Of a stretch of 44,298 bases of DNA, positions 19,303-32,682 are shown in pieces. Every line of letters starts with the position of its first letter. Position 1 is the stretch's first letter. The stretch is from an uncultured Flavobacteriales bacterium (GTDB taxonomy: Bacteria; Bacteroidota; Bacteroidia; Flavobacteriales_D; Parvicellaceae), in contig CAJWIX010000009.1 in NCBI GenBank assembly GCA_913042175.1, positions 1 to 44,298 of the forward strand. Reading direction: 5' to 3'. The notes beneath the pieces were generated by a model. That model did no database searches, had not been told where the DNA came from, and saw only the letters and a program-made list of their open reading frames with translations. A program made the translations under genes and the position numbers.

Positions 19303-20634
19303 TTAATCTACCAATAGAATAGATCCTTGATATTGGCTAATTGAGCCATCTTCATTTTCTAATTTAACAACCCATAAATAATTACCATTAGTGCACTTTT
19401 GGCCAGTATTTTGATTGAAGCCATTCCATCCACTATTTATATTTTTAGTAGCATATACTACTTTACCACTTTTATTGAAAATTAGTAATTCAAATGAAAG
19501 TCCACTGATTTTAATTCCTTCTGGCATAAAGATGTCATTTACACCATCTCCATTTGGAGTAAATGTGTTAGGAGCAAGAATGTCAAAGTTCGATGTAATT
19601 TCAATTTCTCTATTAGAATAAGATGTACATTCATAAATATCAGTGAAGGAGAGATAAGCCATGAATAAACCATTTACTGTATACTCGTGTCTTGGGTATG
19701 TTGTGGTTTCAAATGTTCCATCTCCAAAATCCCAATTAAATGTTCCGTCCTGAAAAATATCGTATTTCCCATTAGAATAATCATTAACAACAATAGGAGT
19801 TAAATATGTACTGATTGTACCATTGTCTTCTGTTGTTTCATAATTTATTTCAAATTCTGGAGCTCTATTTACAGTTATAGTTGTAGAATCTTTCAATACG
19901 GAATTATATGTGGAATCTTTTAAAGTAATTTCAAAAAGAGAAACAGAAATATCTTCTTTCCCAATAATTTTCAATTCTTTATTGTTTCCATAATCTATAC
20001 CATTTACAACCCACAATATGTTACAACTATCACATCCATCTGTGTATAGCAATATAGAGTCATCATAGCATATTTGATTTTTATTGGAAATAATGGTGAG
20101 ATTATAATTGATGGCAGAATCACCAATTGTCGTATCTGTTGTTGAGCTATCTAAAACAGGTTCGATTGAGGTTACATTTTGAGTTGTATCTTGATTCGGA
20201 ATATTGGAAGTGTCATCTCTATATAGTGGAACTTGTTGGTTTTGGTCACCAGAATTATTTTTTTCATTAACTGTTTTTTCAGTTGCTAAGGTTGGTTCAA
20301 TTAAAATTTCAGCGTTATCAGCATCAGCTACATCTTCCTTTTTGGGTTTTTCAACAGGTGTTTCTTCTGTATTTGTTGTTAATGCATCATTTTTAACTAC
20401 AGTATTTAGTGGCTTATTTTCGTTATAATACCATACAGTAACAAGACTAATTGCACATATTAACGATAAAGCCAAAAATAAATTTGATCGACTTTTCTTG
20501 TTTTTATTGACAGCGTCAATTTTATCAAGCTTATTGGAAATGGCACTCCAATCTTTTCCATGATTGCTTTCAAATTTATCGAGCTTATCTTTAATAAGGT
20601 CTTCAAAAGAGTCATATGTTGGTTTTTTGCTCAA
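19303..20634 (-). CDS. Single-pass membrane protein: N-terminal cytoplasmic anti-sigma-like segment, TM helix, PKD domain, gliding-motility-associated/T9SS type-B C-terminal domain
   Basis: 443 aa; no N-terminal signal peptide, TM at about residues 50-69 (LFLALSLICAISLVTVWYY), PKD motif FNWDFGDGTFETTTYPRHEY, CTD-B motif APNTFTPNGDGVNDIF...GWNG. TTG start overlaps the sigma stop (TTGA). Confidence 0.85.
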   Translation of the reverse strand: MSKKPTYDSFEDLIKDKLDKFESNHGKDWSAISNKLDKIDAVNKNKKSRSNLFLALSLICAISLVTVWYYNENKPLNTVVKNDALTTNTEETPVEKPKKEDVADADNAEILIEPTLATEKTVNEKNNSGDQNQQVPLYRDDTSNIPNQDTTQNVTSIEPVLDSSTTDTTIGDSAINYNLTIISNKNQICYDDSILLYTDGCDSCNILWVVNGIDYGNNKELKIIGKEDISVSLFEITLKDSTYNSVLKDSTTITVNRAPEFEINYETTEDNGTISTYLTPIVVNDYSNGKYDIFQDGTFNWDFGDGTFETTTYPRHEYTVNGLFMAYLSFTDIYECTSYSNREIEITSNFDILAPNTFTPNGDGVNDIFMPEGIKISGLSFELLIFNKSGKVVYATKNINSGWNGFNQNTGQKCTNGNYLWVVKLENEDGSISQYQGSILLVD

Positions 20635-21185
20635 AGACTAAATTTATCAGAAAGAATTACTTTCAATTTTGCTTTTGCTTTAGCATAATTTGATTTAGAA
20701 GTGCCTTCACTTATATTAAGTACTTGCGCTATTTCTTTATGGGTTAAGCCATCAAGTACATAAAGGTTAAAAACGGCTTTGTAAGAGGTGCTTAGTTGCT
20801 GAACTGCATCTAAAATTTGATTCATATTTATGTTTTCATATTTTGAAACATCATCTTCCTCAACATGTGACTTATCATAAAGTGAATCTTCATTCGTAAA
20901 TGAGATTTTTTTATTTTTTCTTAGAATATCTAAAGAGTGATTTACTACAATGCGTTTTAACCATCCTCCAAAGTTGACTCCACCTTCGAACTGATTAATT
21001 TTCGAAAATGCTTTAATGAAGCTTTCTTGCACAACATCACTAGCTGTGTCTTGGTCTCTAAAATACCTTAAAGCAACTCCCATCATTTTGCCATAAAATT
21101 CATTATATATGATATGCTGAGACTTTCTATCATTTTTTTTACAACCTTCTATTAGTCCAATGATATTAAACTCCTCAGATTTCAC
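20631..21185 (-). CDS. ECF-family RNA polymerase sigma-70 factor
   Basis: 184 aa; sigma2 ALRYFRDQDTASDVVQESFIKAFSKINQFEGG and sigma4 LDGLTHKEIAQVLNISEGTSKSNYAKAKAKLK. Confidence 0.93.
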   Translation of the reverse strand: MKSEEFNIIGLIEGCKKNDRKSQHIIYNEFYGKMMGVALRYFRDQDTASDVVQESFIKAFSKINQFEGGVNFGGWLKRIVVNHSLDILRKNKKISFTNEDSLYDKSHVEEDDVSKYENINMNQILDAVQQLSTSYKAVFNLYVLDGLTHKEIAQVLNISEGTSKSNYAKAKAKLKVILSDKFSL

Positions 21186-21325
21186 TTTCTACAAACGATT
21201 TAAATTGCAATGGTTGCCTCAATTAGTAAATAATTTATGTTTTTTTTTACAACTATTTATAAAATAGCTACTTAAAGATATTGAATTTTATAATTTCGCA
21301 GAAATTAAAATTTAATCAAATTAAA

Positions 21326-22255: not shown

Positions 22256-22657
22256 AATAAACCTTTCTTTTTCTCTTAAGTCTATAATGTGACATTGGTT
22301 TGTCATTAATTTTTTTCTTCTTTTTGAAATGAAAAGATATAGCCCATTTCTTATTGAATTGGGCATTAAGTAACCTGTTAGAAGAGGGTAAAGCATATAA
22401 TTTTTCATTTGTCTAATTAATTGCAAAACTGCATCAGCATATAGATATACGTTTTCATTTTTGAAAAAAACTATAGTTTCATTTATGTTAATTTTTTCAG
22501 AAGTTGATTCAATTAGTTCTATACCAATTTTTGATGTTGCTGTGGTAATGTGAATTTTTTTAGACTTGTCGTTTTTTATTATGAAATTCCCCCAATAATT
22601 ACAAAAGACACAATCACCATCAATGATTACAATTGACTTATTTACTGATTTGGACAC
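22250..22657 (-). CDS. DCC-family (DUF393) thiol-disulfide oxidoreductase-like protein
   Basis: 135 aa; IIDGDCVFCNYWGNFI motif and YLYADAVLQLIRQM typical of DUF393. Confidence 0.82.
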   Translation of the reverse strand: MSKSVNKSIVIIDGDCVFCNYWGNFIIKNDKSKKIHITTATSKIGIELIESTSEKININETIVFFKNENVYLYADAVLQLIRQMKNYMLYPLLTGYLMPNSIRNGLYLFISKRRKKLMTNQCHIIDLREKERFIL

Positions 22658-24909
22658 TTTATAAACTTTAAAACATAATTTTTTTCATAAAGTGTAAATG
22701 AAAGAAAGTAAATACCGTTATCCATTTTTTCTATGTTAATTTCGTTTAGAGTGACTCCTTTTTTGACCATCGCTCCTCCTATATTAAATATTTGATATTC
22801 AATTAATTCAGGAACGTCTATGTGTATTTTAGTATTACTTGGGTTGGGGTAGATGATGTATTCTTTTGTGTTTGAATTTGAAATGGCACTAATGTTAGAG
22901 TCAAGAGAGCCATAATAAAGTGATAGTCCTCCTCTCTTATTACCAATAATATAATCTAAAATAGTATCATTATTTATATCATAAATAGCCGGTATGTTAT
23001 TTGGGCCAGTATAAATATCAAATAAGTTGCTATCTAATAAGTTGAAACTACCATTAAGGTTATTTGATATATTGTTGTATTTGAAAATTTTACCACGTTC
23101 GCTCCCAACAAATAAAATAACTTCTTGATCTACTGTTTTAAAAACTGGTGCGCTTGACCCAATATTTGTCCACCATTCAGATACATCAACTTGACCTAAT
23201 GTTTCAGAAATAAGTTCAAAATCAAATAGGGTTGAATCTCCTTTGTTTTGAATGTAGTTCAAATTACCAATAGCTTCTCCTACAATTAAGTCTAAATCAT
23301 TGTCATTATCAATGTCAAAAAGTGTTGGGTGAGCACAATATCCAACATCAAAAACATTGTTAAATTGATCAGTTATAGGGGAAATAGATAAAGTTAAATT
23401 CATTTGATTTGGGTTTGTAGAAGTGTTTTCAAAATAATGTAAATTCCCATCAAAATCTCCTACTATCACATCAAGATCTCCATCTGCATCAAGATCCCCA
23501 AAAGCAGGAGCAAGATTGAGTTGGTTTAGAGTACTTGAAATATTTTGAAAGTCGTCACTTGTTTTACTAAAAATTGGGTTTGATGCAGTTCCTATATTAA
23601 GGTATGATTTTATACTTGAGCTGTAATGAATAGGCACACTAAGATCAAATTCACCAAAATTTGACACTACCAAATCCATTAATTCATCATTGTTTAGGTC
23701 TACCAAAAACGGCTTAGCACCTCTTCCTAGTTCTATAGTTTCGTCTTGTAGAAAGTTATTTTGCTGAAAATAAAATGAAGGAGCATCATTAGTTCCATAG
23801 TTTTTATAGTACCAAATGCTTTCTTTATCCTCGGTATCATTATCAGAGTTGGGTGATGCTATAAAATCTTTTACACCATCAAAATCTACATCTTCGTAAA
23901 AAGATGCTGGATATATATAAATATCTGCTGGAACACTGTTGCTTGGAAACGTAGTATCCTGGCTAATAAATGAAGTGTTTTGATTTACTCCAGTATTATC
24001 ATTATACAATGCAACAAAATTACCAAATGAAACATCTCCTAATATGATGTCCCTCACATTGTCATTATTTAAGTCTAAAGACAAAATGGTCGAGCCACTA
24101 TGTCTTTTCGGGTCAGTGCTTATATATTGGTTATTTGTACTTGACTCAGGATTAGAAACATTGAAAGAGCAGGTGTCATATAAAATACATGTGTTTGTTA
24201 AACCATCTTCTCTAAAGTGACCCCAACAAGCATTCTTGAGTTCATATATTAAAGAATCTTGACCGTATCCATTTTCCACGGATAGATTTTTATGGTATTC
24301 AAGCCTAGAGCCCAAAACACCGAAGCTAAGTATGTCTAAATCTCCGTCACCATCAATATCGTCAATAGCGGGGATATCTACGACACTTACATACAAGTTT
24401 GTGTTGGTAGCATATTGATAGGAGTAAATAAAAGGGTTTGTAATTAATGTAAAGGACAATTCACTTCCATTAGATGTATTTATCCATACCCCAATTCCGC
24501 CTGAAACGGAACAAAAAATATCTTTCTTGTTATCGTTGTTGAAATCTCTTAGTAATACCCAATCTCTTAGATCAGTTGGGAATTTTAATTCAAAAGATGG
24601 GTCGTAAATAAATGCATCACCACTATTAATATATGTAAGTATTTTGTTTCCAGTCCTGTCAAAGACAAACAGGTCTTCCATTGAATCAAAATTCAAATCT
24701 ATTTTAGAAATTTGAACTGCATTAAGCCCCCCAGTCCAAGGGTTTAGCAATGTGTCATTATTCTCAATTACTACAATGTCATTTGCTGGACTTACGTGTA
24801 ATTGCTGGGTAAAAAATGTACTGGAATAAAGTGCTGAAATAAAAATAAAAAATGAATATTTAATTAACTTAATTTCATCACTAAAGAGAATTTTATGTCT
24901 AATATTCAT
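22642..24909 (-). CDS. FG-GAP/VCBS-repeat secreted protein with T9SS type-A sorting domain
   Basis: 755 aa; repeated DxDxDGDxD units (DIDGDGDLDILS, DLDADGDLDVIVGDFDGN, DIDNDNDLDLIVGE) and C-terminal IYPNPSNTKIHI...NGIYFLSF. Confidence 0.9.
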   Translation of the reverse strand: MNIRHKILFSDEIKLIKYSFFIFISALYSSTFFTQQLHVSPANDIVVIENNDTLLNPWTGGLNAVQISKIDLNFDSMEDLFVFDRTGNKILTYINSGDAFIYDPSFELKFPTDLRDWVLLRDFNNDNKKDIFCSVSGGIGVWINTSNGSELSFTLITNPFIYSYQYATNTNLYVSVVDIPAIDDIDGDGDLDILSFGVLGSRLEYHKNLSVENGYGQDSLIYELKNACWGHFREDGLTNTCILYDTCSFNVSNPESSTNNQYISTDPKRHSGSTILSLDLNNDNVRDIILGDVSFGNFVALYNDNTGVNQNTSFISQDTTFPSNSVPADIYIYPASFYEDVDFDGVKDFIASPNSDNDTEDKESIWYYKNYGTNDAPSFYFQQNNFLQDETIELGRGAKPFLVDLNNDELMDLVVSNFGEFDLSVPIHYSSSIKSYLNIGTASNPIFSKTSDDFQNISSTLNQLNLAPAFGDLDADGDLDVIVGDFDGNLHYFENTSTNPNQMNLTLSISPITDQFNNVFDVGYCAHPTLFDIDNDNDLDLIVGEAIGNLNYIQNKGDSTLFDFELISETLGQVDVSEWWTNIGSSAPVFKTVDQEVILFVGSERGKIFKYNNISNNLNGSFNLLDSNLFDIYTGPNNIPAIYDINNDTILDYIIGNKRGGLSLYYGSLDSNISAISNSNTKEYIIYPNPSNTKIHIDVPELIEYQIFNIGGAMVKKGVTLNEINIEKMDNGIYFLSFTLYEKNYVLKFIKCPNQ

Positions 24910-30578: not shown

Positions 30579-30630
30579 CAATCCATCTTATCTTTAAAAT
30601 ATGATTAAGTACATCCAAAAAACTGAATTA

Positions 30631-32682
30631 ATGAATTTTAGAAATTTCAATTATTTCCTTTCACTAATCTTTATTATAATTTTCTCAAGTTATAGTGCAC
30701 AGAAAAATTTTATTTCAGATGCAGACATTAAGTTTGATAACGAAGCTTATTTTTCGGCTATAGATTTGTATAAGAAGGGTGAGGTAAAAGAAAAAGATAT
30801 CAACGAAAAAGGAAGAATTAATTTTCAATTAGCAGAATGTTATCGTTATTCTGTTGAACCAGCTCAAGCACAAACTTATTATCAAAGAGCAATTAAGTTG
30901 AAGTATCACGAAAAAGATGCCAATATCTATTTATTATTAGCAGACGTACTTAAGGAGCAAGGTGAGTATCAATCAGCTCTAGAAAACATCAAAAAATATC
31001 TTGAGATTAATGCTGAAGATGCCAAAGCAACTGAAGCTTTAGCATCTTGCGAAAAGGCTATTGAGTGGAAAGAAAACCCTACTAAGCATATGATTCAGAA
31101 TGAAATTTTAATTAACTCAGATCATTATGATTTTTCTCCAACATGGGGAGATAAAAAACACAATGTGCTCATATTTGCTTCTGCACGTGAAGGTTCAACT
31201 GGGGATGGAATAGACGCTAGGACTGGTGAAAGTTTTATGGACTTATGGTCAACAACAAGAGATAATAATGGTAAATGGAGTGAACCACAGTTGTTGCCAA
31301 ACTCTATCAATACTAAAGATAATGAGGGGCCGGCAGTGTTATCATCAAAAGGAGATCAAATTTTCTTTACTAGATGTCCTAGAGAAAAGAAAATTAATTT
31401 AGGATGCGAGATTTTTCATGCGGAGAAGAAAGGGAATTCATGGACACAAGCGGAAAAAGTTCAGTTAAAACCTGAAGGGGCTGATACATTGTCTTGTGGT
31501 CATCCAGCTATTAATTCTACCATGAGATACATGATATTTTCTGCTGATTTTCCTGGTGGATATGGAGGGAAAGATTTATGGATGTCTGAATATGATAAGA
31601 GAGAAGACTCTTGGCTTTCTCCAACCAATTTAGGAGCTGATATTAACACTGACGGAGATGAAATGTTTCCTTATTTATCGGAAGATAATACATTGTATTT
31701 TTCATCCAATGGTTACATAGGTTTAGGTGGCCTAGATGTATTTAAAGCAGAAAGTACTGGTGATAAGACTTGGGGTAATGCAGAAAACTTACAATACCCT
31801 ATAAATTCTCCTGAGCACGATTTTGGAATTATCTTTGAAAGAGGTAGCGATAAAAGAGGATACATTACTTCATCTAGGGTAGATTTAGGAGGCAAAGGAA
31901 AAGATGATTTATATAATTTTAACCTTCCTGAAATACAATTTTCTCTAAGTGTATTTGTTAGTAATAAAGAGACTAATGAGCAAATTCCTGGTGTTACCAT
32001 AAAAGTAACTGGAATCGACACATCAACTGCTGGTGGAATTGTTTCAGAATATGTTCAAACAACTGATGGAGAAGGGAAGGCTATTTTTGAGGAAATTTCA
32101 AAAGGGAAGCGTTACATATTAAAAGATATGGTTTACGAAATTGAGGTAGAAAAAGACAGCTTTTTGGTGGCTAGAAATCAAATAAGTACGATTAATGAAG
32201 AAAATTCTAAAAGATTTTTAGAAGAAGTTTACCTTATTCCAATTGTTGATGAGTCAGGGGAGGCAGCCGTTATTGATTTCCCAGAAGTGCAGTATGCATT
32301 AGATAAAGCCGAATTATTGATCGATGCCAATGTAAATTCTGAGGATTCTTTAGACTTTTTATATGCTACACTTATGGATAACCCTAATATTGTTATTGAA
32401 CTTCAAGCTCATACAGATTGTAGAGGGTCAGATAAATACAATAAAAAACTATCTCAAAGAAGAGCTCAGTCTTGTGTTGATTATCTTATTTCTAAAGGAA
32501 TTCCTAAAGAAAGAATGGTGCCTGTTGGTTATGGTGAGGATAGACCTAGAATGGAAAGTTTAGAATGTGGGGCAATTGACAAGTTGTCTACTAAAGAAGA
32601 ACAAGAAGCTGCACACCAAAAAAATCGTAGAACACAATTTATTGTTTTAAGTACAGACTATTCTCCAGATTCTGAAGAGTAG
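30631..32682 (+). CDS. PorE-like T9SS-associated protein: TPR + PD40/WD40-like propeller + carboxypeptidase-regulatory-like + OmpA C-terminal domain
   Basis: Signal peptide, TPR, propeller motifs (DEMFPYLSEDNTLYFSSNGYIGLGGLDVF), CRD-like segment (NKETNEQIPGVTIKVTG), OmpA motif (IELQAHTDCRGSDKYNKKLSQRRAQSCVDYL). Track start is 30601. Confidence 0.85.
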   Translation: MNFRNFNYFLSLIFIIIFSSYSAQKNFISDADIKFDNEAYFSAIDLYKKGEVKEKDINEKGRINFQLAECYRYSVEPAQAQTYYQRAIKLKYHEKDANIYLLLADVLKEQGEYQSALENIKKYLEINAEDAKATEALASCEKAIEWKENPTKHMIQNEILINSDHYDFSPTWGDKKHNVLIFASAREGSTGDGIDARTGESFMDLWSTTRDNNGKWSEPQLLPNSINTKDNEGPAVLSSKGDQIFFTRCPREKKINLGCEIFHAEKKGNSWTQAEKVQLKPEGADTLSCGHPAINSTMRYMIFSADFPGGYGGKDLWMSEYDKREDSWLSPTNLGADINTDGDEMFPYLSEDNTLYFSSNGYIGLGGLDVFKAESTGDKTWGNAENLQYPINSPEHDFGIIFERGSDKRGYITSSRVDLGGKGKDDLYNFNLPEIQFSLSVFVSNKETNEQIPGVTIKVTGIDTSTAGGIVSEYVQTTDGEGKAIFEEISKGKRYILKDMVYEIEVEKDSFLVARNQISTINEENSKRFLEEVYLIPIVDESGEAAVIDFPEVQYALDKAELLIDANVNSEDSLDFLYATLMDNPNIVIELQAHTDCRGSDKYNKKLSQRRAQSCVDYLISKGIPKERMVPVGYGEDRPRMESLECGAIDKLSTKEEQEAAHQKNRRTQFIVLSTDYSPDSEE

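Follow-up and report, generated by a model that had tools for sequence, protein, structure and literature searches.

A candidate ECF sigma/anti-sigma pair with a tethered T9SS sorting domain and a predicted regulon of secreted cargo in Flavobacteriales

Genes and features of the locus

The window analyzed here, the whole 44,298-nt stretch of a contig from an uncultured marine Flavobacteriales bacterium, carries a two-gene operon composed of an ECF sigma factor and a predicted membrane anti-sigma factor (the partner) that ends in a T9SS sorting domain. The features of the operon, the domains of the partner, and two neighboring genes are as follows.

21195-21218, minus strand: ECF-type promoter of the sigma operon (conserved motif), with −35 GGCAAC (21213-21218), a 15-nt spacer, and −10 CGT (21195-21197)
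20631-21185, minus strand: ECF sigma factor gene, 184 aa (Pfam Sigma70_r2 and Sigma70_r4_2; NCBIfam sigma70-ECF superfamily)
19303-20634, minus strand: predicted membrane anti-sigma factor with a T9SS type-B C-terminal sorting domain (CTD), 443 aa, TTG start (domain matches, model, conserved pairing)
20509-20613, minus strand: cytoplasmic N-terminal two-helix module (NTD), residues 8-42, predicted to bind sigma, with invariant Trp29 (alignments, AlphaFold2 model)
20419-20487, minus strand: single transmembrane (TM) helix, residues ~50-72 (hydropathy; AlphaFold helix 52-72)
20134-20415, minus strand: disordered periplasmic tether, residues 74-167 (pLDDT < 50)
19588-20103, minus strand: two PKD/Ig-like domains, residues 178-349 (PKD_4 match, model; PKD in 23 of 23 family members)
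19306-19587, minus strand: T9SS type-B CTD, residues 350-443, with canonical LAPNTFTPNGDGVNDIF motif (CHU_C, TIGR04131)
22642-24909, minus strand: protein with FG-GAP repeats and a type-A T9SS sorting domain (Por_Secre_tail at 36 bits against a cut-off of 27)
30601-32682, plus strand: PorE-family protein (481 bits, below the 600 cut-off of NF052230), without the promoter motif of the sigma 5′ of it

The first-pass annotation had described the sigma and partner genes as overlapping, and both open reading frames were found where it had placed them, the sigma stop codon TGA (20633-20631) and the partner start codon TTG (20634-20632) sharing bases as TTGA. By its Pfam and NCBIfam matches, the sigma is an ECF factor of ~180 aa with regions 2 and 4 only. 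The NTD-partner type that it has in common with the sigmas of Dma systems (see below) suggests that it may belong to their group, ECF21. The sigma start as listed is GTG, just ~9 nt past the CGT box, so that the transcript may have almost no leader, or the true start may lie further in. A search of viral contigs with the sigma yielded no relatives. The PorE-like gene and the type-A CTD cargo gene noted in the first pass are indeed both present; since the promoter motif occurs only once in the window (0.03 matches expected by chance), in front of the sigma gene itself, we do not place these neighbors in the system.

As had been claimed, ~50 cytoplasmic residues of the partner precede one TM helix, supported by both hydropathy and the structural model. 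The reported PKD domain is also present, but the model contains two PKD/Ig domains rather than one. The assignment of a type-B CTD was borne out by matches over curated cut-offs to both CHU_C (PF13585; residues 354-440, 4e-18, 65.7 bits, cut-off 27) and TIGR04131, “T9SS type B sorting domain” (42.5 bits, cut-off 35). Hydropathy and inspection likewise agreed with the first pass that the partner has no cleavable Sec signal peptide: ~50 residues precede its hydrophobic segment, unlike in the other CHU_C proteins examined in the same genome; of these 20, one is cut by a contig end and the remaining 19 have a hydrophobic core close to the N-terminus after a short n-region. In the AlphaFold2 model, built on a 50-sequence alignment, a helical hairpin (residues 9-21 and 25-42) is followed by the TM helix, a disordered stretch (74-167), a pair of Ig-like domains (~180-346), and a CTD modeled with confidence (354-441). 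The best Foldseek matches in the PDB, which have low TM-scores and indicate likeness at the fold level only, are Ig chains of the grappling-hook protein GhpA and a T9SS protein, latent PorU. A PDB search with the NTD profile produced no significant match, and one with the full-length partner recovered PKD domains only.

Conservation of the pair in Bacteroidota

The first-pass annotation had proposed that the downstream protein may be an anti-sigma factor and that its N-terminal module should be sought next to other ECF sigmas. A 72-residue profile covering the NTD and TM helix matched in 256 of 299 genomes of the order; in a phylum-wide sample of 297 genomes, it matched in 105. At the loci examined, the partner is almost always located immediately 3′ of an ECF sigma gene. 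All 23 complete partners of the family combine NTD, TM helix, PKD, and CTD with the sigma pairing. Among 170 classified sigma/partner pairs, which, as in the motif counts below, are not phylogenetically independent, the C-terminus of the partner is a canonical CTD in 53, a degenerate CTD in 51, barrel-like in 37, and short in 29; in 118 pairs the two genes overlap, and in 167 the partner gene begins within 30 nt of the sigma gene. Conserved pairing, the absence of which would have spoken against the proposal, is thus widespread, and its recurrence in every family locus and in the larger set indicates, at the level of sequence, that neither the architecture nor the pairing is a matter of chance.

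Within the family, identity to the window protein averages 38.5% over the NTD and 47.5% over the CTD, the best-conserved region, and is 10% over the tether, which suggests that both ends are constrained, whereas the middle is constrained only in approximate length; the tether shows no sequence conservation and spans 71-127 residues in relatives. The PNGDGxND motif of type-B sorting domains is degenerate in 51 of 104 CTD-type partners, in which the fold and position of the CTD are nevertheless retained; a canonical CTD scoring above the cut-off is kept in the clade of the window and in many other families. On the sigma tree, the presence of any CTD requires four changes, at least two of which are forced by well-supported branches, and the NTD module with an adjoining sigma is found phylum-wide, in some cases without any CTD. 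Covariation between sigma and NTD, computed without phylogeny correction, yields strong pairs over all sequences that mostly vanish within the CTD clade; confounded by phylogeny, it is at most weakly suggestive of contact.

The closest experimentally established counterparts are the Dma anti-sigma factors, represented by Dma1-3 with the Das sigmas of Bacteroides thetaiotaomicron (PMC13088901). Their genes, restricted to Bacteroidota, lie beside those of ECF21 sigmas, and the proteins consist of an N-terminal anti-sigma domain, a TM helix, a long disordered tether, and a C-terminal barrel, reaching the outer membrane (PMC13088901). The window protein shares with them the adjoining ECF sigma and the succession of NTD, TM helix, and long disordered tether, with sigma binding predicted; the likeness rests on the published plan and on the NTD common to barrel-type relatives. 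One of these, L217 from Flavobacteriaceae, gave a model in which ~200 disordered residues separate the same hairpin and TM helix from an OmpA-like barrel. Because relatives of the L217 type match the Dma plan, we read the window protein as an anti-sigma factor in which a T9SS domain takes the place of the barrel. Dma proteins differ in their C-terminal β-barrel, where the window protein has two PKD/Ig domains and a type-B CTD, and in their regulon of vesiculation or PUL genes, as opposed to the T9SS cargo predicted here. Lacking the barrel, the window protein is a variant of Dma rather than a Dma factor in the strict sense. The nearest Bacteroidales relative seen is a barrel-type pair of Dysgonomonas (L182) with a weak NTD score. 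Taken together, the phylum-wide occurrence of the NTD beside ECF sigmas and the Dma-type plan strongly support the first-pass proposal, and the partner is very probably the anti-sigma factor of the adjoining sigma.

Several observations were made in passing. The NTD module is tandemly duplicated in some lineages (L029, L030, L032, L083, L086, L087, and L090). At locus L031 (G033:C51), an ECF sigma continues within one 364-aa open reading frame into a C-terminal part that contains two hydrophobic segments; its use as a natural sigma/anti-sigma fusion was set aside, given that the membrane segments follow the sigma but have no NTD match, and the product may possibly be a self-contained membrane-bound sigma. 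Some public records appear to be mislabeled, including L150 (CP034120.1, “Glaciecola amylolytica”), which is G132 of the order of the window, L147 (“Candidatus Kuenenia”), and L145, L155, L161, and L163 (“Chryseobacterium gleum” MAGs); their sigma/partner loci group among Crocinitomicaceae-type Flavobacteriales.

The promoter motif and the genes behind it

The promoter of the sigma operon is of the autoregulatory type, with an AAC-type −35 element and a CGT −10 box in conserved sequence. GGCAAC-N15/16-CGT[CT] is found 5′ of the sigma gene at every family locus, including those with a different upstream gene. More broadly, GGCAAC-N15-17-CGT[CT] lies within 120 nt of the sigma gene at 93 of 105 CTD-type loci, as against 3 of 38 barrel-type and 5 of 29 short-type loci and none for the reversed pattern; it persists at loci in which the PNGDGxND motif of the partner is degenerate. 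With such a distribution, the sigma very probably uses a GGCAAC-N15-17-CGT promoter. Seven of the 12 CTD-type loci without the motif belong to one paralogous group with TGCAACC instead. Members of this group (L026, L027, L080, and L104-L106) have a canonical CTD, a single PKD domain, and TGCAACC with a downstream GTC-type element; because the latter combination replaces GGCAAC-N-CGT, the group probably has a regulon of its own.

In the genome of the window, the exact pattern has six matches: one at the sigma gene, two near genes for type-B CTD proteins, and three (C12, C78, and C123) that were dismissed as noise because they fall inside coding sequence. One match is located 36 nt 5′ of the gene for a 1370-aa type-B CTD protein; the other lies immediately 5′ of the frame encoding a type-B CTD protein of 705 aa, the start codon of which is unclear and which is probably a target as well. 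A scan of this genome found no core T9SS machinery genes under the motif. Across 15 family genomes together with the own-genome cargo match, 40 non-self matches were read, 25 of which are intergenic, compared with 1 of 30 for a reversed-pattern control. Nineteen of the 40 lie directly 5′ of a gene of at least 80 aa with a signal-peptide-like N-terminus, compared with 0 of 30 reversed matches (Fisher 4e-6; here and below, such values are guides only, because orthologs are not independent observations).

The genes behind the motif encode eight full-length type-B CTD proteins, and three truncated proteins are orthologous to these. The motif also stands before genes for a type-A CTD protein carrying SprB repeats and for a DUF4886/PKD protein with a weak type-A tail, before an operon in which PorP/SprF accompanies a type-B cargo gene, before a PorG-like gene (75 bits against a cut-off of 130), and before genes for several small exported proteins. 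Small proteins of this kind, of 110-150 aa (L299 and L356, which look related, as well as L276 and L284), may be new factors of the periplasm or linked to the T9SS. Cargo targets also occur in outgroup families, lineages with a degenerate CTD among them: L351 is of type B, L365 is a relative of the DUF4886/PKD protein, and L383 has a type-A-like tail.

One case is a type-B CTD cargo family of the SHVPGGNI type, the gene of which is preceded by the motif in 14 of 18 genomes holding a CTD-type pair. In genus g6, the cargo gene is kept but the motif is found in 0 of 6 genomes (Fisher 0.0016, again as a guide among related orthologs), none of which has a CTD-type pair, only weak or barrel-type sigmas being present; the genus is thus, judging from gene content, a natural negative control for the association of motif and pair. 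Three more genomes (G009, G025, and G034; 57-86% complete) have the motif at this gene, and the pair was not found in them. Separately, two copies of GGCAACC-N-CGT ~80 nt apart occur in family f9 at L374 (G055), L375 (G074), and L376 (G046), with no clear downstream gene by the criteria applied.

Because the motif precedes cargo genes and tracks the pair among orthologs, the sigma very likely controls T9SS cargo. The enrichment of the motif before cargo genes is established by sequence, and from it we infer use of these promoters by the sigma, the regulon of which in all likelihood centers on T9SS cargo. The link to T9SS drawn in the first-pass annotation has thereby gained a basis in a conserved promoter that stands before T9SS cargo genes. 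Both the motif and its distribution over cargo genes are new here.

ECF sigmas have been connected to T9SS genes before. In Porphyromonas gingivalis, the ECF sigma SigP controls T9SS genes under the PorY/PorX two-component system (PMC4800418), and PorA, a CTD protein with a signal peptide, acts upstream of SigP (PMC7712824). The resemblance to the present system lies in an ECF sigma acting on T9SS genes and a CTD protein in an upstream role. However, SigP is under two-component control, with no anti-sigma factor described, the published SigP motif is unrelated to GGCAAC-N-CGT, and PorA has a signal peptide and a surface location and is devoid of a sigma-binding domain. We therefore rejected SigP-type control as the same system, no two-component partner having been seen and the motif being unrelated. 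In Flavobacterium psychrophilum, the SM6 promoters, an ECF class whose −10 box is CGT, cover GldN, PorU, and a homolog of PorG (PMC9723704) as well as the ECF/anti-sigma pair THC0290_1774/1773, the acting sigma being left unresolved in that paper (PMC9723704); ECF control of T9SS genes through these promoters is suggested. SM6 has in common with the window system ECF promoters with a CGT −10 box on T9SS genes and an ECF/anti-sigma pair, but covers core machinery rather than cargo, and its anti-sigma factor is not described as having a CTD.

A possible role for the tethered sorting domain

Considered as a whole, the pair is probably an autoregulated ECF sigma/membrane anti-sigma switch acting on T9SS cargo, chiefly type-B CTD surface proteins, with cargo-mimic sensing as the most likely mode. 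NTD-sigma binding, negative control, promoter use, and CTD sensing are all steps that we infer. In this scheme, the two-helix domain of the 443-aa protein would bind and silence the sigma at the inner membrane, as suggested by the conserved pairing and the Dma plan, and the TM helix, tether, and PKD/Ig domains would hold a genuine-looking type-B CTD in the periplasm, with sufficient reach for the outer membrane. The tethered CTD might mimic type-B cargo and engage the T9SS or a partner of the PorP/SprF type, and its engagement, or its displacement by real cargo, would decide whether the anti-sigma factor is inactivated. The freed sigma would then transcribe its own operon and the T9SS cargo genes from GGCAAC-N15-17-CGT promoters, so that cargo synthesis would be matched to secretion capacity. 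That the CTD senses the T9SS, as the first-pass annotation had suggested, or its occupancy by cargo is plausible and has, in our estimate, just under an even chance. The specific version, in which the mimic competes with real cargo for the T9SS or PorP/SprF and translocon occupancy sets transcription of type-B cargo genes, is offered more tentatively still. Type-B CTD proteins are known to associate with PorP-like barrels, for example in PG1035-PorP-PorE (PMC9143113); the window protein likewise has a type-B CTD, and one motif-target operon pairs a type-B cargo gene with PorP/SprF, but PG1035-type proteins are secreted with a signal peptide, whereas the window protein keeps a cytoplasmic N-terminus.

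The main competing explanation is that the CTD is a repurposed Ig-like sensor, its fold taken from a T9SS protein, that responds to another envelope signal such as outer-membrane integrity, PorP-like barrels, or a ligand, with the sigma still controlling cargo. The sensor end does seem exchangeable, because the same NTD carries a β-barrel or a short tail in relatives. Moreover, about half of the CTD-type partners have lost the canonical sorting motif while retaining fold and position, and the persistence of the promoter in this half implies that an intact sorting motif is dispensable there and speaks against a simple export signal. However, in the clade of the window and in many other families, the CTD is canonical, scores above the cut-off, and is more conserved than any other part of the protein, and the regulon is largely made up of proteins bearing the same type-B domain; on balance, we consider a repurposed sensor unlikely, though it is the most credible of the alternatives.

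In flagellar export, the FlgM/sigma-28 system exemplifies an anti-sigma factor tied to a secretion machine that governs expression of late substrates. By analogy, the ectodomain of the window protein could be cut after the TM helix and exported through the T9SS, finished secretion removing the inhibitor. For FlgM, it is established that the anti-sigma factor is removed through secretion, and the canonical CTD sits at the C-terminus, as such a route would have it. Nevertheless, the protein has no signal peptide, inspection of the partner and family sequences revealed no conserved cleavage motif C-terminal of the TM helix, an uncut tethered substrate would jam the pore, and the CTD is degenerate in half of the family, which makes this route improbable. 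FlgM itself is small, soluble, and exported whole, with no homology to the membrane-tethered window protein and its T9SS domain, so that the likeness is one of logic only. Finally, ordinary T9SS cargo with an odd N-terminus could have come to lie beside a sigma gene by chance, its CTD and PKD domains being typical of cargo; yet the NTD module and sigma adjacency are conserved phylum-wide, also without any CTD, and the ~50 cytoplasmic residues before the TM helix set the protein apart from other CTD proteins of the genome. With odds this slim, we rejected ordinary secreted cargo on the strength of the N-terminus and the conserved pairing.

Returning to cargo-mimic sensing by a tethered CTD, no description of an anti-sigma factor with a T9SS sorting domain was found in the open-licence literature. 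The conserved sigma/partner pairs suggest that Dma-type anti-sigma factors are a modular class in which the C-terminal domain, be it a barrel, a T9SS CTD, or a short tail, can be exchanged. Apart from the PorXY-SigP system of P. gingivalis, the literature found leaves open how production of T9SS cargo is adjusted to secretion capacity in Bacteroidota. The present locus joins both ends of the problem, an anti-sigma factor with the sorting domain of cargo and a sigma promoter that stands before cargo genes, and the idea is directly testable because a concrete promoter sequence, a list of targets, and a mutable domain are at hand. If the translocon-occupancy reading is true, the pair would represent a secretion-coupled regulator for the T9SS, a counterpart of the FlgM logic that arose by the joining of a sorting domain to a Dma-type anti-sigma module.
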